From: Luminiphilus sp. | GTDB taxonomy: Bacteria > Pseudomonadota > Gammaproteobacteria > Pseudomonadales > Halieaceae | DNA: 64,000 nucleotides | Direction: 5' to 3' | Assembly: GCA_029242325.1 (NCBI GenBank) | Contig: JAQWUD010000028.1 | Coordinates: 1-64,000, forward strand | Shown here: positions 54,470 to 64,000 of the stretch, piece after piece | Layout: every line of letters begins with the position of its first letter | Position numbering within the stretch: position 1 is the first letter of the stretch | Translations under genes and position numbers: made by a program | Notes under the pieces: generated by a model | Told to the model about the DNA's origin: nothing | The model's database searches: none | The model's input: only the letters and a program-made list of their open reading frames with translations

Positions 54470-55891
54470 CTAGCGGATGACTTTAACCCAATCTCCTGTG
54501 CGGGGTTCGCCGGTGGGGTAATAGCCATTGATGAGTCTGAGTTGGTTCTCCGCATCGGGTAGTTTGACGCTGCTGGCGAGCGAGGCGAAGGTCGCGCCCC
54601 TGGGCACTTGAATGTAGTGCAGGGTATGGCTGGTCCCGGTGACTTTTTCCCGTGCGGTCAGCGGGCGAAAGCTGTCGATAATCTTGCGAAAGCTATCGTC
54701 CGCCTCAGCGAGATGAGTTGCCTCGCCCTCAAAGAGAAAACGATAGCTGTGATCGATGACTGCCAGCCGCACCGACTGCTCATCGCTTGAAGCGACGCCT
54801 GTGGATCCCGTCAGTCCATATTGCGCGACCGCCTCAAGGTCGGTGACGTCGCCCTGAGCGCCCGCGAGCAGGCTGGCTTCGGCGTCCTGATTGGCGTCGA
54901 TACGCGTGAGCCCAATCGTCAGCGTTTGGCTACCATCCCCCGACGAGGCGACAATTTCCCGGCTGGTTTGTCTGACGCTCCAGCCCGGCGGGTGGGCGAA
55001 AGTGAAATTCAGTTTATTATGATAAAACCGGTCGGGTTCACTCTGAGCCGCCGCGCTGGCGCCGTACACCAATCCTTCGGTTTGGCGGCGATACTCGCCG
55101 GGCATTTCCGGATTTTCCGTCATTTCTGTGAGATCCAGTTCATTGGCGGCCTTGATCACGGTCTGTAAACGCAGGTCGTTGCGGGGGTGGCTGGCGTATA
55201 GACCATGGTAAGTCCCGGAAGGCTTGCCGCTGGCCTTTGCCTGTACGCGGCGGTACTGCTCCTGATCCTTAAGGACCCCGATGACCGATAGCATCGAGTC
55301 GACGTCATAACCGGTTTGATGCAGGTACTCGGCCCCTGCCGCGTCAGCCTCGAGTTCCATGTCTCGGCCGAATCCCGAAATGATCTCGGCTCCGTACATA
55401 CTGGCGGCGTCGTAAACATCTCCCGAGCCAGTGAGGATGTAGGCGGATACGGCGGCTACTTTGGAGGTCATCTGAGCAGTTTGTCTGCGGGAATGGTGGC
55501 TCTCTGTGATGTGCCCGATCTCATGGGCGAGTACACCCGCGAGTTCCGCTTCGGTATCGAGATACGTCAATAAGCCCCGATTCACATAAATAAAGCCCCC
55601 CGGCATGGCAAAGGCATTGATGTCTGGAGAGTCCAGTAGGGTGAAGGTAAAGCTCGGGCGCGTAATGCCGGCATCACGCAAAAGGTGCTCGCCAATGCGG
55701 CGCACGTAGGCATCTAACTCAGGGTCTTCATAAATACCGATGTTGTCGATTAGCTTCTGGTGTTCTTCGGCAACCTCTTTCGGCATCTCCACTGATTTCC
55801 CCCCCACGGTGACCGTAGACGAACTGCTCGCGCATCCAGCCAACAGGACGGCAATCAAACACAGTGAGAGTGGGGCGGGCAGTAATCGCAT
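54470..55891 (-). CDS. M48-family metalloprotease lipoprotein (BepA-like)
   Basis: 473 residues from the ATG at 55891. A lipoprotein signal ends in LLAGC. The M48 domain covers about 40-230 with zinc motif GVLAHEIGHITESHHS and a downstream glutamate in ELEADAAGAEYL. A beta-rich region and a LysM-like C-terminus (INGYYPTGEPRTGDWVKV) follow. BepA/YfgC relatives degrade misfolded outer-membrane proteins such as stalled LptD. This one lacks the TPR tail of BepA. It follows the two lipoprotein genes of the VWA operon by 9 bases and may belong to it. Confidence 0.88.
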   Translation of the reverse strand: MRLLPAPLSLCLIAVLLAGCASSSSTVTVGGKSVEMPKEVAEEHQKLIDNIGIYEDPELDAYVRRIGEHLLRDAGITRPSFTFTLLDSPDINAFAMPGGFIYVNRGLLTYLDTEAELAGVLAHEIGHITESHHSRRQTAQMTSKVAAVSAYILTGSGDVYDAASMYGAEIISGFGRDMELEADAAGAEYLHQTGYDVDSMLSVIGVLKDQEQYRRVQAKASGKPSGTYHGLYASHPRNDLRLQTVIKAANELDLTEMTENPEMPGEYRRQTEGLVYGASAAAQSEPDRFYHNKLNFTFAHPPGWSVRQTSREIVASSGDGSQTLTIGLTRIDANQDAEASLLAGAQGDVTDLEAVAQYGLTGSTGVASSDEQSVRLAVIDHSYRFLFEGEATHLAEADDSFRKIIDSFRPLTAREKVTGTSHTLHYIQVPRGATFASLASSVKLPDAENQLRLINGYYPTGEPRTGDWVKVIR

Positions 55892-55900
55892 GGGTATCAC

Positions 55901-56584
55901 TCAGTGGTGGGCAGAGAGGTATTCCAATAGTTGATCACCCAGACTATCGCAGGCGGTGCCCTGAACCGGGGCGATAATAGGGATGGGCACTACCACGGCG
56001 GGCATATAACTTTGACCGCTGGCCACCGCACTAACCTTGCCAACCTCGACTTTGTCAGTGAAGTCCCAAATAGTGGCCTCGTATTCCGATTCGGTGCCCC
56101 AGGTGCCAAACCCGAAGCAGCCTGCGACACCCGGCCCGATTCCGCAGCTCATGGAGCCGACGCTCTCGGTGTCGACCGTCTTACCGTCGATCCAGATCAT
56201 GTACTCGAGTTTCATTTCGGCAAAGCGGTCGGCTACCGGCGGCAGCTGCAACAGGTAGTCAATGGCCTTCGGTTGCATGGGCGCGGTGCGGGGTTCAAAC
56301 CAGGGATAGAACTGATTGATGAAGGCAATCTCGTGAATCACCTCGATACTCGGATCGCCACTGTGAATGTGGTCGCCAATACACTCGATAAAATCGAATT
56401 CCGTGTCGTAGTCGGGAGCATGCCGGCGGCCGAGAATGACCACACTGGACTCGCCAATGCCATCGACCGGTTCGTTATAGGTCATCTCATCCACGGTGGC
56501 ATTGACGCAGCCTCCGAGAAGGATCGCGATGACAAACAGTATCGTCCAAGTGCAAGCACGTTCGGCTGGTTGCCGCTGCATCAA
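55901..56584 (-). CDS. Uncharacterised lipoprotein downstream of the VWA operon
   Basis: 227 residues. The lipoprotein signal ends in ILLGGC near residue 26. The mature part is mixed alpha/beta with YNEPVDGIGESSVVILGRRHA, IEVIHEIAFINQFYPWFEPRTAPMQ and a glycine/cysteine-rich stretch (MSCGIGPGVAGCFGFGTWG). I do not recognise the family. The start overlaps the stop of the preceding lipoprotein gene by 4 bases, and the VWA-operon genes upstream are similarly tight, so it is probably part of that unit. Confidence 0.65.
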   Translation of the reverse strand: MMQRQPAERACTWTILFVIAILLGGCVNATVDEMTYNEPVDGIGESSVVILGRRHAPDYDTEFDFIECIGDHIHSGDPSIEVIHEIAFINQFYPWFEPRTAPMQPKAIDYLLQLPPVADRFAEMKLEYMIWIDGKTVDTESVGSMSCGIGPGVAGCFGFGTWGTESEYEATIWDFTDKVEVGKVSAVASGQSYMPAVVVPIPIIAPVQGTACDSLGDQLLEYLSAHH

Positions 56585-57501
56585 TCTCCCCCCTTGCTCG
56601 CGTCTCGCTCGGAGGGCAAGTCGGTTTCAGTCTGGGCGCTTGGTGGCGTGATGACGGAGGACGTTTTCGTAACCGTTTCATCAGCTCGTTCCTCGCGACC
56701 ACTGCTCTCAGGCAACACGCCTGCGGGTGCCTCGGGTAGGCTGTCCGTCACCGAATCGTCGGCAACGTTAGCCGGCGTTTCGTTGGCACGCTGATGGCGT
56801 GTCGGGATGGTGTTGAGCCACGATGCCACTTCGGGAGTCGCGCCAAATGTCGTCACAAAATGTGCGCCCGCATCCCGCAACGCAACAACTGCTGCCAGAT
56901 TCACCGCCTCTTCGTCGGTTTGCAGAAACGCTGTGGGCGTTTTTCCATAGGCAGTGATAGGCCAGAATGCGAGCCGCTCATCGGGACTGAAGGTCAGCGC
57001 CCCATCATCTTGCTGATGGATGGCCGAAGTATCCACCAAGCGGAATTCGTAACGCATCCAGATCTCATAGACTTTTACATTGGTATGTGTGGGGATGGTG
57101 TACTGTAGCTCGGCTATGTTCGGGATGAGCACGCCATCAATCTCTCCGCCGTGTGCCTGCAATGCTTCTGCGCTCTGTAGGTGAATCACCTGTTCGAACA
57201 TTCCGGCAAAAAGGGTATCCCAAAAGTGAACCTGTGCTTCTCCGGTTTTGACTAGCCAGTCAGAATCCGCACGTCCTTTTGCTTCATCAAAGAACTCGTG
57301 CTCAGCGAAAGCAGGTGGATAAATTACACCAAGGGTAATAGGCAGTGGCTCCAGCAGGGGTTTAGGGAAGTTCCCCTCAACGATCACCTGCTTTGAGGCG
57401 CACCCTGCGAAGAGCAGCGTGAGGCAGAGCAAAACGAGCGAACGTCTCAATCCGGACGGCTCATGGTCGAAAATCGTTGAGGCCAACGAAGCTACCCCCA
57501 T
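56581..57501 (-). CDS. Uncharacterised lipoprotein, operon partner of VWA proteins
   Basis: 306 residues from the ATG at 57501, which overlaps the upstream VWA gene by 41 bases. A TTG at 57450 gives a tidier lipoprotein signal (LRRSLVLLCLTLLFAGC) and may be the true start. The mature N-domain (ITLGVIYPPAFAEHEFF, an FWDTLFAGMFEQVIHL helix and IDGVLIPNIAELQYTIP) resembles the fold of lipoproteins that bind periplasmic partners, but I cannot name it. The last 80 residues are Pro/Ser/Thr/Glu-rich and disordered. It may dock the VWA machine to the outer membrane. Confidence 0.65.
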   Translation of the reverse strand: MGVASLASTIFDHEPSGLRRSLVLLCLTLLFAGCASKQVIVEGNFPKPLLEPLPITLGVIYPPAFAEHEFFDEAKGRADSDWLVKTGEAQVHFWDTLFAGMFEQVIHLQSAEALQAHGGEIDGVLIPNIAELQYTIPTHTNVKVYEIWMRYEFRLVDTSAIHQQDDGALTFSPDERLAFWPITAYGKTPTAFLQTDEEAVNLAAVVALRDAGAHFVTTFGATPEVASWLNTIPTRHQRANETPANVADDSVTDSLPEAPAGVLPESSGREERADETVTKTSSVITPPSAQTETDLPSERDASKGGD

Positions 57502-58459
57502 TTCTCAGGGTGAGTTCCCGCATCAGTGTAGCAAACCGAACCCCCGTCGCCTGTAACTCCGGGGGCCTGATGAACTGTACGGGAAAGCCTACTCCGTGGA
57601 TGCGCACGCGGCGCTCCCCACTCGCGGCTTCAGCATTGAGGCGGTCAACTGTTCTGACCACTTCCTGAATAGAAGGCCCTGTAAATTCATCGCCAAAGAC
57701 ATAAATCGAGATCTTCTTGCCCGGGTCATAAAAAGCTCTGACTGCGTTGGTAATGCCCTCAACGGGTGAGGAATTTGAAAACACGTTCCAATTTCTCAGG
57801 TTTTGCAGAATGAGGCTGCGTCGGGCAGGCGTGTCGGGTATCCACTCGCCGCGGTAGCGGCTGAAAAGATAGTTTCCCATATCATTGAGGACTTGAATGC
57901 CCTTTACCTCTGGATAGATATTGAGGGTAGCCTCCATCTCCAGCAACATCCGCTCCCAAGCATAAGAAAACATCGACCCCGACGTATCGATGATGAAAAT
58001 GATGTACTCGCTATCTACCGGTATGCCACCAATGAGCTGGTTTTTTTTCTGTGCGTTGCGGCCGAGCAATCGCAGCTCTTCCTCAGAAAGTTTTTGTCTG
58101 GCAATGGCGAGTTGCTCTCTGACAATGGCATTGGCGTTTTGCGAAGTACTGAGGGCATCATAATCGGATCTCGTCCGCGCCAGAGTGCCCTGCAGGATTG
58201 CGATACGTTCCTCAAAGTCTGAGACCTGCTCGCGTTTGACTTCGAGGTCGCGGTTGAGAATGGTCGTTTCGCCACGTATCTCAAACAGCTGCTCTGTCAG
58301 GTCAGCCACCACTGCTTCAGCTTCCAGAGAAGCTTCCTCAATGACCTGGGGTTGTACGGTTTTAGTAATCATGAGCAGCAGTATGATCGCGCCAAAGCCG
58401 CAACAGATCACATCCAGGAAGGACAGTGAAAATTCGGCGGGGGCGCGACGGGTTTTCAT
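57461..58459 (-). CDS. VWA protein 2 with ExbD/MotB-like membrane helix
   Basis: 332 residues. After a basic N-terminus comes SLSFLDVICCGFGAIILLLM at 11-30, a single helix with Asp16, like the proton-binding aspartate of ExbD, TolR and MotB. Residues about 40-135 form a coiled coil. A von Willebrand A domain follows, with the MIDAS start DTSGS at 158-162, the middle acidic region VFGDEFTG and a terminal GVGFPVQF strand. The N-in, C-out topology places the VWA domain in the periplasm. Paralogue of the adjacent VWA protein 1. Probably a rod and head subunit of a machine powered by the MotA-like protein of the operon; ligand unknown. Confidence 0.8.
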   Translation of the reverse strand: MKTRRAPAEFSLSFLDVICCGFGAIILLLMITKTVQPQVIEEASLEAEAVVADLTEQLFEIRGETTILNRDLEVKREQVSDFEERIAILQGTLARTRSDYDALSTSQNANAIVREQLAIARQKLSEEELRLLGRNAQKKNQLIGGIPVDSEYIIFIIDTSGSMFSYAWERMLLEMEATLNIYPEVKGIQVLNDMGNYLFSRYRGEWIPDTPARRSLILQNLRNWNVFSNSSPVEGITNAVRAFYDPGKKISIYVFGDEFTGPSIQEVVRTVDRLNAEAASGERRVRIHGVGFPVQFIRPPELQATGVRFATLMRELTLRNGGSFVGLNDFRP

Positions 58460-58468
58460 TCTGTTTCT

Positions 58469-59560
58469 CTAGGGCCAATCGGTTGATGGCGAGAGAAAAC
58501 TACCTTTAGAGGCTCGCGCCAGTTGCCAGAATTCAGAGGCGGCCATCGGGTCCCCTTCCATCGGGAAAAGGATGGTATTGACCGGTACGCCAGCGGGGAG
58601 TTGCCTAATCGCCTCACGAAATAGCTTGAGCCGCTCTTCGCCAGAGATCCTGCTACCACGAGGCGCTCGCTCGCCCTGTGTCGGGAGGCCATCTGTGAGC
58701 AGAAAAATATTATCCGGGGGTTCCGGGAATGCTGCGAGTGCCGCGAAGGCATTATGCAGGCTGGTCCCACCAGCGGGCACCTGTGCTCGTAGCGCGGTGC
58801 TGATTGCCTCGAGCTTGGGCGTGTCCGCCACTTCGAGCCACTGCCCTTCAGTGTCCTCCAGAGCAGGCCTCGCCTCGGTGCCAAAGGTGACGACCTGAAA
58901 TTGCGCATTGACGGGTAATTGGGCGGTCAGCCAGTCGACGGTATTCAGGGTTCGGGTCCATTTACCCGCTTGTTTCTGCAGCTCGGCATCCATGTTGCGC
59001 AGCCGGATCACGTTGACCAGTTGATTGGCGAGCATACTCGCAGACGTGTCGACCATGATCACGATGCGTTGCCCACCTAGGTTGAGCCCGGTCAGGTATT
59101 GCCGGTTACCTTCCCCCACAAACTCACGAGCGCTACGGCCCGCCTCGGCTTCTGCGGCTTCCTCCAGAAGACGGATCTTTTCCTCGAGCTGATTGATTTC
59201 GGCCTGCAGTTTTGCCACGACCTCACTGTCACTCACTCCCGATTCTTCGATGGAGGCGATCAACGCCTCATACTCACCGAGCTCTTCAGTAATCCGGCGA
59301 GCGAGGCCATCAGCTTCCACAATTTCCAGGTCAGCTTCATCGAGTGCGTTGCGCAGGCGCACGAGGCCCTCCTGCCCCTCGCGAATATCCTCCTCGAGCA
59401 AATCGACCTCTGAAAGCACCTCTGCGTTGACGGTTTGAAGCTCGATCTCCAGCGAGTGATCGATAATCAAAAAAACCAATACAACGGCGCCGAATCCACA
59501 GGACATGATGTCGAGGAAGCTCAGATTAAAAGTGGAGGACTGCCGATGACGACGCGCCAT
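58469..59560 (-). CDS. VWA protein 1 with ExbD/MotB-like membrane helix
   Basis: 363 residues. The N-terminal NLSFLDIMSCGFGAVVLVFL at 12-31 is nearly the same as in VWA protein 2 and carries Asp17 at the same place. A heptad-rich coiled coil covers about 45-140. The VWA domain has MIDAS DTSAS at 171-175, AGGTSLHNAFAALAAF with the metal-binding threonine, and LLTDGLPTQG with the second aspartate. The MIDAS is therefore complete. No peptidoglycan-binding OmpA motif is present. 9 bases separate it from VWA2 and 3 from the upstream gene. The two paralogues could form a heterodimer within a five-to-two stator. Confidence 0.82.
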   Translation of the reverse strand: MARRHRQSSTFNLSFLDIMSCGFGAVVLVFLIIDHSLEIELQTVNAEVLSEVDLLEEDIREGQEGLVRLRNALDEADLEIVEADGLARRITEELGEYEALIASIEESGVSDSEVVAKLQAEINQLEEKIRLLEEAAEAEAGRSAREFVGEGNRQYLTGLNLGGQRIVIMVDTSASMLANQLVNVIRLRNMDAELQKQAGKWTRTLNTVDWLTAQLPVNAQFQVVTFGTEARPALEDTEGQWLEVADTPKLEAISTALRAQVPAGGTSLHNAFAALAAFPEPPDNIFLLTDGLPTQGERAPRGSRISGEERLKLFREAIRQLPAGVPVNTILFPMEGDPMAASEFWQLARASKGSFLSPSTDWP

Positions 59561-59563
59561 AGA

Positions 59564-60778
59564 TCAGGGCTCCACAGTGATGAACTGTATCTCGATCCCG
59601 CTCACCGAGAGTCGATCACCGGCCTTCAGCATCATCACGCCCTCTGCGGCGCGATCGTTTAGCTGTGCCTGTGCGTTTGGCTGGATGGTGATTTCGCTCT
59701 GCCCAGATATCACGACACCTGCCGCGAGGGAGGCGCTGGATGCTAACGGTGTCGCATGGCCTGCGACCAGTTGATGAGTCACGGAAAATGAGAGCGACTC
59801 GTGGCTCACCGTGGCGGCCTTGCTGCTTGCGTCAGCGGCGGGGAGCGTGTCGTCACAGGGCGCTTCGCGCTGAAACGTTAACTCGCCGTCTTGGGCTGGC
59901 ATGGCGCTTGCAATTCTCGGCAGCGCGTCGGCGCTGATGGTGCTTGCCGGGTGAGGCAGATTGAGCCCGGGTAGCACAGATAGGAGTGCATCGAGGGCAA
60001 TGTGCGTGACATCGTGATGGATGAGTGGCGAAAGGGCTTTACTGAATGCAGCCCCAACTGACTGCAGGATGTCTGCGCTGATGCGTGCCGCATGCCCATC
60101 GAGCGTGCAGTTCACTTCACTCTGTGTCGCAAGAGATCGAAGGAGGTCAGGAATTTGTTGATAGAGGCGTTGCTCCGTGTCGGCCCGGCGCTGAGGATCG
60201 AATCGGGTTTGTGCCACGAACTGTTGGCCGATCAACTCCGCTATCTCGTCCATCAGGCCCAACAGTCCATGGCCGGGCAGCAGCTGGGTCTCGCCGGCGC
60301 GAGCCAGAGTGTGCTCCACAAAGACAGGAGTGATGCTGGCTTGGTGCAACTGTAACTCTACGTGGGCACAGGATTGTCCGGCTGCAGCGCCGGCGAGTGC
60401 ACTGCGGTGCACGACGCTACTGACGGTCACGGGCAGGGTCTGCAGGATTCCCAATAACAACGACAGTTGATCGGCTTCCATCGATCCGGGAATGATCAGG
60501 GTGAGCTCGCCACTGACGCCGTTTAAAAGGGTTTCAAGATGCTCATGTGCGAGGTCTGCGGTGTGGCGTGCCGGGCCCAGTGCCGGGCTCAGGGCTTGTG
60601 TCGACAGCCGATGCCAGTACCGGTTATTGACCTCGCGCGGCACCCGGCGGGCCTGTTGCCAGGCAACTTCGCCAAATTGATAACGCCCTTCACTGAACCA
60701 AGCGAAGCCGGGTGACCACGTATCCTGTTGATCTCGCCAAAGCCGCAGCGAAGCATCATTGCAGTCAAGCAGGAGCAT
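59564..60778 (-). CDS. Possible actin/Hsp70-fold protein with FHA-like C-terminus
   Basis: 404 residues. The opening MLLLDCNDASLRLW, then YQFGEVAWQQARRVPREVNN and a LTLIIPGSMEADQLSLLLGIL segment follow the pattern of divergent actin/Hsp70-fold proteins (first phosphate-loop strand, FGEXA, connecting strand). The glycines of a working ATP site are poorly conserved. The last 75 residues (AGVVISGQSEITI to GVMMLKAGDRLSVSGI) form a beta sandwich like an FHA domain without the Arg-Ser phospho-binding set. Cytoplasmic. The ATG overlaps the stop of the MotA-like gene. It may be the cytoplasmic regulator or scaffold of the machine. Confidence 0.5.
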   Translation of the reverse strand: MLLLDCNDASLRLWRDQQDTWSPGFAWFSEGRYQFGEVAWQQARRVPREVNNRYWHRLSTQALSPALGPARHTADLAHEHLETLLNGVSGELTLIIPGSMEADQLSLLLGILQTLPVTVSSVVHRSALAGAAAGQSCAHVELQLHQASITPVFVEHTLARAGETQLLPGHGLLGLMDEIAELIGQQFVAQTRFDPQRRADTEQRLYQQIPDLLRSLATQSEVNCTLDGHAARISADILQSVGAAFSKALSPLIHHDVTHIALDALLSVLPGLNLPHPASTISADALPRIASAMPAQDGELTFQREAPCDDTLPAADASSKAATVSHESLSFSVTHQLVAGHATPLASSASLAAGVVISGQSEITIQPNAQAQLNDRAAEGVMMLKAGDRLSVSGIEIQFITVEP

Positions 60779-61581
60779 CAGTTACGGGGTACCGACAGGT
60801 GCCGCAGCAGATGGCGATCAATATAGCGTTGCGTGTTGAGGACCAGGCGCTCTTGAGAGAGTTGCAGTTGGTGTAGTGCAAACATAATGATGATGGAGAG
60901 CACCAGGGCCACGAAGGTGCTGTTAAACGCAACGCCAAGACTCACCGTGACGCCGGAGATATCCCCCTCCACGGCCTTGTAGGCCTGACCCAGTGCGTCG
61001 CCAATACCCCGTACGGTGCCAATAAACCCAATCGATGGAATCGCCCAGGAAATGTAACGGACCATCGAGAGCTCCGAGTCGAGTCGATCGGCTTCAATGT
61101 CGCACTGCTCGCGAACTGCATCGGAAACGGCGGGAATACTGCCCGTGGTGGTAAAGCGGCTCAGCGCATTTGCCAGCGCGCGCGGCAGCAAATAGTCCTG
61201 CTCCTCTGTCGACAGCGCTTCGAGTGAGCGGGATTGCTCGCGCGCATCTCTCGGCAAGATGCTGGTGCCCTCGGGGATGGCAATGAGATCGCGATCGAGC
61301 ATAAGCGCCTCTGCGCGGGTGCGGGAAGCTTTGAGTCCCATGATGGCGAGCGCCCACAGCATCAGAATGAAACAGGTTTCCTGCTCGTAATCTTTGATGA
61401 CGATCGCCAGAGAGCGGTTACCCGTGGGCGCCTCTCCCGCAGCTTGCTGTGCTGCCTGAACCGCGAGTTGAGAATCTGCGCTGGGGCGAATGACGCCCAC
61501 GTAAGCGGCATGAACCAGAATGACAGCGATGAGCAGTGCAAATAGCTGATAGAGGAACTCCGAGGGTAAACGTAGTTTCAT
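60778..61581 (-). CDS. MotA/TolQ/ExbB-family proton-channel protein
   Basis: 267 residues with four predicted helices at about 10-30, 68-84, 176-196 and 213-236, and a cytoplasmic loop from about 85 to 170. The diagnostic region is ISWAIPSIGFIGTVRGIGDA at 177-196, followed by VTVSLGVAFNSTFVALVLSI at 211-230, the two helices that line the channel in ExbB, TolQ and MotA. The periplasmic loop at 32-66 is longer than usual. It should form the pentameric ring around two single-span partners, here the VWA proteins encoded next. Not part of a tol-pal, exb or flagellar operon. Confidence 0.85.
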   Translation of the reverse strand: MKLRLPSEFLYQLFALLIAVILVHAAYVGVIRPSADSQLAVQAAQQAAGEAPTGNRSLAIVIKDYEQETCFILMLWALAIMGLKASRTRAEALMLDRDLIAIPEGTSILPRDAREQSRSLEALSTEEQDYLLPRALANALSRFTTTGSIPAVSDAVREQCDIEADRLDSELSMVRYISWAIPSIGFIGTVRGIGDALGQAYKAVEGDISGVTVSLGVAFNSTFVALVLSIIIMFALHQLQLSQERLVLNTQRYIDRHLLRHLSVPRN

Positions 61582-61599: not shown

Positions 61600-61875
61600 T
61601 CAGATATCCACGGGGAAGGACACGGAGAGGTCTTCGGAAATAGATTCGCTCGGCTCATAGTCCAAAACCGTGCCAGAGGCACCTGGTTCTGGTGTTGCAG
61701 CGGCCTCGTCGACGGCTTGACCAGCACCTGCGTCCGAGATCGCGATCTCGCCTTCTTCGGGCGCTCCTGAAACACCGGGTGTGTCCTGAGCGAATACGGT
61801 GTTTGCGACGCATGCGCACAATGCCAGTGCATAAAACGCGACATGATGCCGTGCGACCCGAACGCTATTCTGCAT
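61600..61875 (-). CDS. Small exported acidic protein of the VWA operon
   Basis: 91 residues from the ATG at 61875, with an AGGA site ten bases upstream. It overlaps the end of the PEGA/SUMF1-like gene by 11 bases. A signal peptide (FYALALCACVANTVFAQ) is followed by about 60 residues rich in Glu, Ala, Pro and Gly, with no aromatic except one Tyr and a Phe near the end. It looks disordered. It is probably a periplasmic linker or ligand. Acidic flexible tails of this sort can bind the metal site of VWA domains, but that is speculation. Confidence 0.6.
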   Translation of the reverse strand: MQNSVRVARHHVAFYALALCACVANTVFAQDTPGVSGAPEEGEIAISDAGAGQAVDEAAATPEPGASGTVLDYEPSESISEDLSVSFPVDI

Positions 61876-63970
61876 AGCGTGCAATCCTGAAGCCAAGGTC
61901 ATCCCGCCCGCGCTCGCCGTAATCGCGAAAGGTCAGCCGCAACTCGGACAACCGACTCAGCGCCCAACTGCCTCCGCGGATAGCGTAATTGTCGCCTCGC
62001 TGCGCGCCTAGTGGGTCGATAGCCAGCTCGGCGTTGGCGGAGGGAATCCGGTATCCATCGTGCATCCATTCGGCAACATTACCACCCATGTCGTGCAGTC
62101 CGCGATGGTTGGGAGGAAAGCTCCCAACCGGTGCCGACACCACGAACTGGTCAGTGTAGCCATTGAGAATACGACCCGTGACCAGTGCTGAGGTGTTGTC
62201 TGCTACGTTGGTGACCACTCGGGTGGGCGGAAAGTCGTTGCCCCAGGCAAATCGCCGCACGGCATCTCCTTCGGTCCGTGCCGCAAAAGCCCACTCCGCT
62301 TCGCTGGGTAAACGGTAACCCGTGCTGCTGGGATTAAAGCCAGTGATGATCCCTTGTTTCTCTCGGTAGAAGGGGGTGAAACCCTCGAGTCGGCTGAGCC
62401 AATTGCAAAAACTCGCGGCTTGCTGCCAGCTGATGCCCGCGACGGGTTGATGATCACGATCCAGCGAGTAGCTCTCGATGAGACCGGAATCGTGACTGGC
62501 CTCGAACTGGCGAAACTGGGCATTGGTGATTTCTGTTGAAGAGATATAGAAGGCGCGCTTCAGCTCCACCGTGTGCTCGACCTCATTGGCCCGACGCCCG
62601 GGATCCCGGCGTGAGGCGCCCATGGTGAAGGGGTTTTGAGTTTCCAGAGCGGGATCAACCAACACCAGTGTTTGACCCAGCGCCGTGGTAACAGTGGGCG
62701 TCATGGCGGCTTTGCGCGCGGCGGCCTCAGTCAGCAAAGACACGCGAACTTGCTGGGGCAGCCCCGGCTTCGGTAGCACTTGCGTGTCGAAACCGGCATA
62801 ACCTGCAAGACGCACCTCGATCCGGTGGGGCGTAGCGGGCAGGGAGAGCGTTTGATTACCGGTGCCTACTACTTTGCCGTTCACCAGTAGCGCTGCTTCG
62901 GGGGGCAGAATCGTTACGCGCACTTCGCCCAAGTCTGGTTCGAGGGTGATCGAGCGGCGGGTTGTTTCTCCTTTTGCCAAGGTGAGCGACAGCGTAGCGG
63001 GGCGGTAACCGGCTCGAGAGAGGCTGATGGCATGGCGATCGCTGGGACTCAAAGGCAATACGATGGGGGTGAGTCCGGCGAAAACCCCGTCGACGGTCAC
63101 GCCGGCCCCGGCTGGCGTGCTGTTCAGCGACAGCGTTGCATCAGCCGGAGTCAGTTCGATGCTGCCAAGATTCTGATTGATACCCGCCACGACAGTGAGT
63201 GCGACCGTCTCGGGCACGTAGCCTGGCGCGCTCAACGTCAGCTCATGTTGACCCGACAGTATGGAGACGCCTTCCGGTGTGATCTCGGTGACTTGGCCGT
63301 CCACGGCTGCGGTCACAATGGCGGGCGTACTATTAAAGCGCACGGCTGCCCAATCTGGCACCAGTGCGATATTCACCATCTGGTTCTGTTTGCGGCCAAT
63401 GACCTCGATGTCGCCCCGCCAAGGCTGGTAGCGGGGCAGTGCGGCGCTAACAGCATACCGGCCTGCCTCGAGCGTGAGGTCACTTACCGGGGCCGGGCCA
63501 AGGGACAGGTCGTCGATTGCGATCTCAGCCCCTGCAGGTTCTGTGGCAATGCGCACGGTTCCGGGCAGGGGCGAGAGCCGGATTTCGAGTTGCTGCGTGT
63601 CGGCATCGCCGACGGTGATCGTTTGCTCGTAAGGGCGATAGCCCTCAGCAGCCACATTGAGCAAGTAGTCTCCCGGTCTTACTAGCACGCGATTGCCAAA
63701 CGACCAACTCAGACCACTCAATGAAAACGTGGTCTCGCCCTCCGCATCGATATTGAGCGTGAGCGAGCGTGCAGTGAAAAGGAAAAAAAGCAGTGCAGCG
63801 ATTAATAGCCCTGCAATGGCCATCGCAATGTGAGGGGCACTGACACGTTGCGTCGGATTGGGTGCCTGACTGAGGGGCTCGAACGCGGTCGGTGCCAGCG
63901 GCTCACCGGCACCCTCGGGGTTTGCTGGCGCAAATGCTTCGGGCGTCAGTGTGTTGTCACGGTCATTCAT
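61865..63970 (-). CDS. Periplasmic PEGA-repeat protein with catalytically dead SUMF1-like domain
   Basis: 701 residues. A disordered N-terminus is followed by one membrane helix at about 48-67. Four or five PEGA-type beta repeats span about 85-420, for example VRIATEPAGAEIAIDD, LNSTPAGAGVTVDGVFAG and GYRPATLSL. A SUMF1/formylglycine-enzyme fold spans about 460-701, with FTMGASRRDPGRRANE, STEITNAQF, YRLPSEAEWAFAART, DMGGNVAEWMHDG and AIRGGSWALSR. The two catalytic cysteines that follow RGGSW in true formylglycine enzymes are absent, so it is a binding module. PEGA domains typically sit in envelope proteins. First complete gene of the VWA operon; upstream genes lie outside the window. Confidence 0.85.
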   Translation of the reverse strand: MNDRDNTLTPEAFAPANPEGAGEPLAPTAFEPLSQAPNPTQRVSAPHIAMAIAGLLIAALLFFLFTARSLTLNIDAEGETTFSLSGLSWSFGNRVLVRPGDYLLNVAAEGYRPYEQTITVGDADTQQLEIRLSPLPGTVRIATEPAGAEIAIDDLSLGPAPVSDLTLEAGRYAVSAALPRYQPWRGDIEVIGRKQNQMVNIALVPDWAAVRFNSTPAIVTAAVDGQVTEITPEGVSILSGQHELTLSAPGYVPETVALTVVAGINQNLGSIELTPADATLSLNSTPAGAGVTVDGVFAGLTPIVLPLSPSDRHAISLSRAGYRPATLSLTLAKGETTRRSITLEPDLGEVRVTILPPEAALLVNGKVVGTGNQTLSLPATPHRIEVRLAGYAGFDTQVLPKPGLPQQVRVSLLTEAAARKAAMTPTVTTALGQTLVLVDPALETQNPFTMGASRRDPGRRANEVEHTVELKRAFYISSTEITNAQFRQFEASHDSGLIESYSLDRDHQPVAGISWQQAASFCNWLSRLEGFTPFYREKQGIITGFNPSSTGYRLPSEAEWAFAARTEGDAVRRFAWGNDFPPTRVVTNVADNTSALVTGRILNGYTDQFVVSAPVGSFPPNHRGLHDMGGNVAEWMHDGYRIPSANAELAIDPLGAQRGDNYAIRGGSWALSRLSELRLTFRDYGERGRDDLGFRIARYAE

Positions 63971-64000
63971 GGTTCTCGCTCAAATCGCCTCAACGCAGCG

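Follow-up and report, generated by a model that had tools for sequence, protein, structure and literature searches.

A candidate ion-driven motor with two VWA-domain partners encoded in an operon of Luminiphilus sp.

In the usual 5:2 motor of the MotA/TolQ/ExbB superfamily, the central dimer consists of two copies of one protein, which carries a peptidoglycan-binding or an ExbD/TolR domain. Here we analyze a locus in which a gene of this superfamily is accompanied by two VWA-domain genes. It lies on the reverse strand of a 64,000 nucleotide stretch of DNA from Luminiphilus sp. (positions 1 to 64,000 of contig JAQWUD010000028.1, assembly GCA_029242325.1; hereafter the window), where positions 57461-61581 encode a MotA/TolQ/ExbB-family ring subunit (the MotA-like protein), a cytoplasmic protein and two paralogues, VWA1 and VWA2. 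This tight order had been reported in a preliminary description of the DNA and is confirmed by the coordinates and by Pfam; the four genes do exist as described there, and the longer operon to which they belong had been missed. We propose that the locus quite probably encodes an ion-driven 5:2 rotary motor of this superfamily, built with a VWA1-VWA2 heterodimer and powering a trans-envelope machine. Directly supported by the comparisons presented below are the family membership, the invariant residues, a near-constant pairing and synteny, the lack of ExbD, TolR and MotB in the loci, and two predicted accessory folds.

The idea of a VWA motor has been put forward before. In the part considered here, Williams-Jones et al. 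(Mol Biol Evol 2025, PMC12204202) describe a tolQ-like gene beside a heterologous VWA pair with a TolR/ExbD-like pore helix, propose a VWA dimer inside a TolQ-like pentamer, and present AlphaFold 3 models that put the aspartates in a ring of threonines. The first of their VWA families is stated to be of unknown function, and the second is given no function beyond force transduction. The preliminary description had called the machine undescribed, and in view of that paper it is not. In its features of sequence and gene order, the Luminiphilus locus fits the TPH-vWA/tolQ-like family as stated in the text covered, where an Idiomarina sequence served as query. The tolQ-like neighbor, the heterologous VWA pair (97 of 98 loci, the exception being locus L125), the pore-helix aspartate and the lack of tolR, exbD and motB were all found, and the two share an occurrence in Proteobacteria and Verrucomicrobia. 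The text of section 8 of PMC12204202 makes no mention of PEGA/FGE, TPR-like (second family), lipoprotein, M48 or Hsp70-fold/FHA genes, which its figures may show. Relative to the part of that paper considered, new here are the operon-wide view, the conservation of the metal ion-dependent adhesion site (MIDAS), the Hsp70/FHA-type partner, the TolB-N-like lipoprotein (as a lead) and the multi-phylum spread. Among the matches listed in a search of full-text literature, whose scope left preprints and most subscription journals outside, PMC12204202 was the only paper recognized as holding the VWA-motor idea. The words "von Willebrand" had no occurrences in the text covered of a paper on MotAB evolution (PMC12505986) or of a review of Ton/Tol motors (PMC12905483), the latter citing PMC12204202.

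Several other systems invite comparison. The TolQ type is the nearest ring protein among four groups compared, and the predicted fold of the P1 family, encoded further upstream, leads to TolB, PelC, LptE and PqiC; in contrast to the TolQ-TolR-TolA-TolB-Pal system, our loci have no TolR, no TolB propeller, TolA or Pal was recognized by Pfam among the operon proteins, the partners have VWA heads, and the ring protein probably has one more helix before its cytoplasmic domain. With MotA-MotB and PomA-PomB the locus shares a pore helix that aligns best with MotB, whereas its VWA proteins lack an OmpA-type peptidoglycan domain and its ring protein is closer to TolQ than to MotA. The ZorA-ZorB pair of Zorya defense likewise joins a MotA-like protein to a partner with coiled-coil features. 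Zorya itself was rejected, since PADLOC run on five proteins gave only E values of 0.031 (ZorA) and 0.027 (ZorB). In the type IX secretion and gliding system the GldL-GldM motor adjoins GldK, a protein with the fold of the formylglycine-generating enzyme (FGE), and the motor described here also adjoins an FGE-fold protein. GldK is the best NCBIfam match of that protein (112.2 bits, far under the cut-off of 350 bits), which differs from it in having PEGA repeats and an N-terminal helix. The MoxR-VWA/Hsp70 conflict systems (PMC7159879) were rejected as well: none of the operon proteins was recognized by Pfam as a MoxR or a GTPase, and ExbB/TolQ is absent from the text covered of that paper.

The ring protein and the paired VWA proteins

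The MotA-like protein (60778..61581, reverse strand, 267 amino acids) passes the Pfam model MotA_ExbB with 51.9 bits against a cut-off of 22.9. It does not reach the NCBIfam equivalog thresholds of an orthodox TolQ (27.7 of 221 bits) or ExbB (exbB2, 19.3 of 135.35 bits), and with TolR/ExbD not found nearby an orthodox Tol or Ton system was rejected. The preliminary description had raised the case of an orthodox TolQ/ExbB with its own ExbD, which did not hold in view of these scores and of loci free of ExbD. Models of ExbD/TolR and of MotB found none of these among the 4501 open reading frames (ORFs) of 103 loci, and the same models recover 35 and 30 ORFs, respectively, in the loci from which they were built. 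Since the genome holds four other MotA_ExbB genes, three ExbD-type genes and two MotB-type genes elsewhere, the VWA-motor locus is an additional system.

The MotA-like family was aligned by hhalign with four groups of sequences from related bacteria, the group names being given by eye: TolQ (E value 1.1e-7), long ExbB (3.9e-5), MotA/PomA (0.001) and short ExbB (0.001). The TolQ-type group was the nearest of the four by hhalign and by hydropathy. At the chosen hydropathy threshold, helices are seen at residues 13-31, 68-86 and 217-235; since a further helix near 175-197 falls below that threshold and was read from the TolQ alignment, we infer a total of four. P182, T189 and T222 are kept in 94 of 94 alignment rows, and T189 and T222 align with two threonines of TolQ that we take to be its ring threonines.

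VWA1 (58469..59560, reverse strand, 363 amino acids) and VWA2 (57461..58459, reverse strand, 332 amino acids) each have an N-terminal pore helix with an aspartate (D17 and D16, respectively), a coiled coil and a VWA or VWA-like head. Pfam recognizes VWA_3 (35.9 bits) and VWA_2 (27.2 bits; both cut-offs 27) in VWA1 and gives no VWA match for VWA2 itself, whose family aligns to that of VWA1 over 313 columns with an hhalign probability of 99.85; by this alignment the two families are clear paralogues. An OmpA-type peptidoglycan-binding C-terminus was not found in either protein by Pfam, which gives VWA for VWA1 and nothing of that kind for VWA2. Between helix and head, the coiled coil weakly matches SMC and further coiled-coil proteins, and the 11 matches of the VWA2 profile to the PDB at an E value of 0.1 were read as chance matches of coiled coils.

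D16 of VWA2 is kept in 103 of 103 rows, the window included, and D17 of VWA1 in 86 of the 86 rows, out of 100, that have a letter at that position. The MIDAS pattern, DxSxS followed by T/S and D as we take the motif to be, is present in both proteins. In VWA1 it consists of D171-S173-S175 (99 of 99 rows), T266 (97 of 100, with Ser in the other 3) and D290 (100 of 100), and in VWA2 of D158-S160-S162, S230/S231 and D257, each found in 103 of 103 rows. VWA2 thus has Ser for Thr, and either S230 or S231 may be the replacement. The aspartates at 16 and 17, the single N-terminal helix of each protein, the coiled coil and the MIDAS residues had been pointed out in the preliminary description and are borne out by the positions and the alignment rows. 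The FLD motif of the helix was located in 79 of 100 VWA1 and 99 of 103 VWA2 rows, and the 14 residues ahead of it are net positive in 78 and 94 of these, respectively. By the positive-inside rule the VWA heads are therefore predicted to lie in the periplasm, beyond a linker of about 100 residues.

In order to compare pore helices, the N-terminal 60 residues of VWA1 and of VWA2 were turned into profiles and aligned with ExbD/TolR (22 sequences) and MotB (25 sequences) from related bacteria. Against MotB the two N-termini scored 19.5 and 21.0, without gaps and with Asp on Asp, whereas six control segments of the same operon scored at most 16.8. The hhalign probabilities were only 16 and 26, and a MotB-like pore helix is weakly supported by these alignments. 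ExbD/TolR was rejected as the closest relative of the helix, since its scores were no better than those of the controls and MotB scored better.

The rows of VWA1 with a gap at D17 point to an unusual translation start. Of these 14 rows, 2 are cut by a contig end, and in the other 12 an in-frame FLD or FID lies shortly before the start that was called. In all 12 of these ORFs, which start after the pore aspartate (loci L067, L069, L071, L072, L073, L074, L076, L089, L090, L110, L136 and L152), an in-frame CTG stands 13 codons before the F of FLD/FID; none has an ATG, GTG or TTG ahead of the motif, and by eye 10 of the 12 have AGG a few bases upstream of the CTG. From this pattern it appears likely that VWA1 uses a conserved CTG start codon, which perhaps sets the level of VWA1 against that of VWA2.

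Conservation, synteny and co-occurrence

The comparison covered 102 loci, each identified by its VWA1 or VWA2: two sets of 10 and 12 chosen regions, and the 80 best of at least 580 confirmed relatives. These loci are not all independent (L131 and L032 are one example, and L079 and L117 come from one metagenome-assembled genome), and the synteny fractions count only loci with enough flanking sequence. By their record titles, the 80 best relatives include Gamma-, Alpha- and Betaproteobacteria, Desulfobacteraceae/Desulfobulbaceae, Acidobacteriota/Vicinamibacteria and Verrucomicrobia, and conservation over these classes and phyla excludes chance. The locus is present in Methylophaga aminisulfidivorans MP (L153), Bowmanella denitrificans JL63 (L101) and Pseudohalioglobus lutimaris HF004 (L149). 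One scan of viral contigs with VWA1 returned no relative, and a phage origin was accordingly set aside.

Beside VWA2, VWA1 was found in 97 of 98 loci and the MotA-like gene in 86 of 87. The gene for the PEGA/FGE protein was present in 81 of 83 testable loci, P2 in 69 of 74 and P1 in at least 66 of 74, the last count being a lower bound because P1 is often cut by the flank. Other genes were more variable: the cytoplasmic protein was found in 47 of 87, LP1 in 45 of 84 and M48 in 27 of 76 testable loci, and sm in 53 of the 102 loci. Among the 73 loci with both flanks, LP1 and the cytoplasmic protein were both present in 37 and both absent in 30, with the cytoplasmic protein alone in 6 and LP1 alone in 0. 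This pattern gives two forms of the operon, a compact form (P0-P1-P2-FGE-MotA-VWA1-VWA2) and an extended form like that of the window. A genome of the same genus carries the extended operon (L030) and also a second, compact and diverged copy (L029, G016:C18), with a MotA-like protein that is 38% identical and without the Hsp70-fold protein. A few loci depart from these arrangements: L115 is without FGE and P2, L098 and L148 are without P2, and in L138 the genes P0-P2 are on the opposite strand.

Co-occurrence was also apparent at the level of genomes. VWA1 was present in 33 of 58 genomes (its own included), and 32 of the 33 have a match of more than 380 bits to the MotA clade. The 33rd (G025) has VWA1 1.3 kb from a contig start and no MotA-clade match above 380 bits. 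None of the 25 genomes without VWA1 has the MotA clade, two of them having marginal matches only. The preliminary description had suggested checking whether this MotA-like clade occurs together with the VWA proteins, and by both counts (86 of 87 loci, 32 of 33 VWA1 genomes) it does. In the phylum, 16 of 398 genomes have a match to the VWA2 profile, and in the class 40 of 369 do at an E value of 0.001, 28 of these with 280 bits or more. Over 83 loci, the distances within the VWA1 family follow those within the VWA2 family with a correlation of 0.951; since other operon pairs correlate similarly (0.914-0.94), this speaks for co-inheritance and not for contact.

Proposed mechanism and alternative explanations

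In the proposed rotary motor, the MotA-like protein would form a pentamer around a central dimer made of the N-terminal helices of VWA1 and VWA2, an obligate heterodimer with an ion-binding aspartate on each helix. The flow of ions would set both coiled coils rotating along with the periplasmic VWA heads, and the heads may engage partners from the same operon through their MIDAS sites. Candidate partners are the PEGA/FGE-fold and TPR-like inner-membrane proteins and the outer-membrane lipoproteins, including P1, whose predicted fold is TolB-N/PelC-like. The cytoplasmic Hsp70-fold/FHA protein, where present (about half of the systems), might assemble or gate the motor. The 5:2 stoichiometry, the ion coupling, the rotation, the heterodimer, the metal-dependent grip and a moving or tensioning action at the outer membrane are thus presumed properties, and the VWA heads could hold a metal-coordinated ligand under force. 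With a VWA-headed heterodimer at its center, a 5:2 motor would depart from the symmetry that such motors are assumed to have, and the heads would represent a new output domain. Since the operon names likely partners, the question of what a VWA motor works on becomes testable in the strains named above.

A fuller version of this scheme has the TolQ/MotAB-type motor turn the VWA1-VWA2 heterodimer within a cage of PEGA/FGE and TPR-like proteins and act on the TolB-N-like outer-membrane lipoprotein, with regulation by the Hsp70-fold/FHA protein from the cytoplasm and the MIDAS serving as a force-dependent clutch. We offer it tentatively, at somewhat less than even chances. If true, the whole machine would represent a third kind of output beside the peptidoglycan clamp of MotB and the tether of TolA/TonB.

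Several observations weigh against the rotary motor. The ring Glu of ExbB/TolQ, presumably E176 of ExbB, has no counterpart in the MotA-like alignment. A PDB search with the MotA-like sequence profile gave no match at an E value of 0.01, and solved MotA, TolQ and ExbB chains exist. The match of the pore helix to MotB is weak in absolute terms (the hhalign probabilities of 16 and 26 given above), and the scores of the VWA helices with ExbD/TolR (11.4-15.5) lie within the range of the controls. No experiment on this motor was found in the literature covered. Lastly, L125 has VWA2 with neither motor nor VWA1 nearby. This locus, on a contig titled Verrucomicrobia, holds a genuine VWA2 with the FLD helix (L125:7995-8993); VWA1, the motor and FGE were not found within 17 kb, and upstream there is a tandem pair of paralogues from another family. 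Of the motor as first sketched in the preliminary description, the family assignment, the conservation of the aspartates, the co-occurrence and the conserved Thr and Pro residues stand, the match to the MotB register is weak, and the novelty is lost.

The strongest competitor, though an improbable one, is an ion-driven conformational pump, in which the ring would switch VWA1 and VWA2 between open and closed states, for signaling or to let go of clients as a chaperone does, without rotating continuously or exerting force at the outer membrane. The retained MIDAS residues of the VWA heads agree with it, MIDAS being a gate of ligand binding in other families, and the Hsp70-fold partner together with the FHA domains of 3 of 35 relatives suggests regulated assembly or signaling. 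The conserved lipoprotein candidates and the long, probably periplasmic partners better suit work across the envelope, and the Hsp70-fold protein is missing from 40 of 87 testable loci. It is highly improbable that the system is a mechanosensor or surface adhesion device, its VWA heads or FGE/PEGA proteins reaching outward and its ring leaking ions on load. In other bacteria VWA domains reportedly serve surface sensing and gliding adhesion (PMC9210963; CglB, which PMC12204202 also names), whereas the heads here are predicted to be periplasmic behind their linker, and nothing was seen in them that would anchor them to the outer membrane or the surface. Least probable of all is that a decayed or non-conducting relative of TolQ merely holds the VWA proteins in the membrane as a scaffold. 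The missing ring Glu could be cited for it; against it, MotA likewise lacks that Glu, and a scaffold would not need P182, T189, T222 and both aspartates to be invariant.

Operon layout and accessory genes

The operon consists of 13 genes on one strand and extends past the end of the window within a contig of 102,398 bases. The MotA-like gene and the gene for the cytoplasmic protein overlap by 1 base, followed by gaps of 3 and 9 bases down to VWA2, and strand and spacing suggest that all 13 genes form one transcript.

The cytoplasmic protein (59564..60778, reverse strand, 404 amino acids) gave an AlphaFold2 model with a mean predicted local distance difference test score (pLDDT) of 92.3, and all 50 PDB matches listed by Foldseek for this model are, by title, Hsp70-family chains or complexes (best E value 7.1e-14), with template modeling (TM) scores by query length of no more than 0.56 among them. 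Of 35 family members searched with Pfam, 3 gave FHA and 1 gave HSP70, the window's own protein giving neither. The family is predicted to combine an Hsp70-type nucleotide-binding domain with a C-terminal FHA-like beta domain, a reading that applies to the family as a whole because Pfam detects FHA in only those 3 members, the window's protein not among them. By eye, the phosphate-binding motifs of the Hsp70-fold protein look degenerate.

The PEGA/FGE-fold protein (61865..63970, reverse strand, 701 amino acids) belongs to the conserved core and has PEGA repeats (Pfam 153.7 bits), an N-terminal hydrophobic helix at residues 48-66 and a C-terminal FGE-fold domain (FGE-sulfatase, 147.9 bits). From residue 600 on, where we assume the active-site cysteines of the formylglycine-generating enzyme to lie, Cys is absent in 84 of 88 rows, occurs once in 3 and twice in 1. 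Since Cys is missing from this portion in nearly all rows, the FGE domain probably has a structural role. P2 is represented in the window by its 3' end (63980..64000, reverse strand), and the whole gene (contig positions 63980-65509, 509 amino acids) continues past the window end; it is TPR-like, with weak TPR matches and one hydrophobic N-terminal helix.

P1 lies upstream on the same reverse strand, beyond the window end (406 amino acids, with a lipobox-like site). A relative from Methylophaga (L153, and not the protein of the window genome) was modeled with a mean pLDDT of 75, and Foldseek found nothing for this model at an E value of 0.001 or better. Its ten best matches were TolB (several entries), PelC, LptE and HpaA, with probabilities of 0.80-1.00 and TM-scores by query length of no more than 0.21. 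The modeled fold weakly resembles TolB-N/PelC, a lead only because the match covers part of the protein. Pfam gave scattered weak matches in the P1 family, with TolB_N in 1 of 22 members at an E value of 0.039.

Downstream of VWA2 on the same strand are LP1 (56581..57501), probably exported and overlapping VWA2 by 41 bases if the longest start is used, LP2 (55901..56584), a predicted lipoprotein with a lipobox-like site at residue 23, and an M48 metallopeptidase (54470..55900; Pfam Peptidase_M48, 115.3 bits), also a predicted lipoprotein with a lipobox-like site. The small gene sm (61600..61902, reverse strand, 100 amino acids), which is not universal, encodes a low-complexity, probably secreted protein. 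The first gene of the row (contig 67880-69604, L158:7880-9604, same strand, 574 amino acids) lies beyond the window end and has weak TPR matches; it was matched in one other locus only, because few loci reach so far upstream. By eye, the last 100 residues of its product resemble a TonB C-terminal domain, which Pfam does not show. P0 (L158:6723-7856, same strand, upstream and beyond the window end) encodes a Gly/Ser-rich protein of 377 amino acids, and several P0 proteins are of low complexity, examples being those of L067:2305-2925, L066:15894-16958 and the Luminiphilus locus itself. By eye, the L029 copy is without the C-terminal KLWxEYRKYK motif that is common to several P0 proteins of Gamma-type and other loci.

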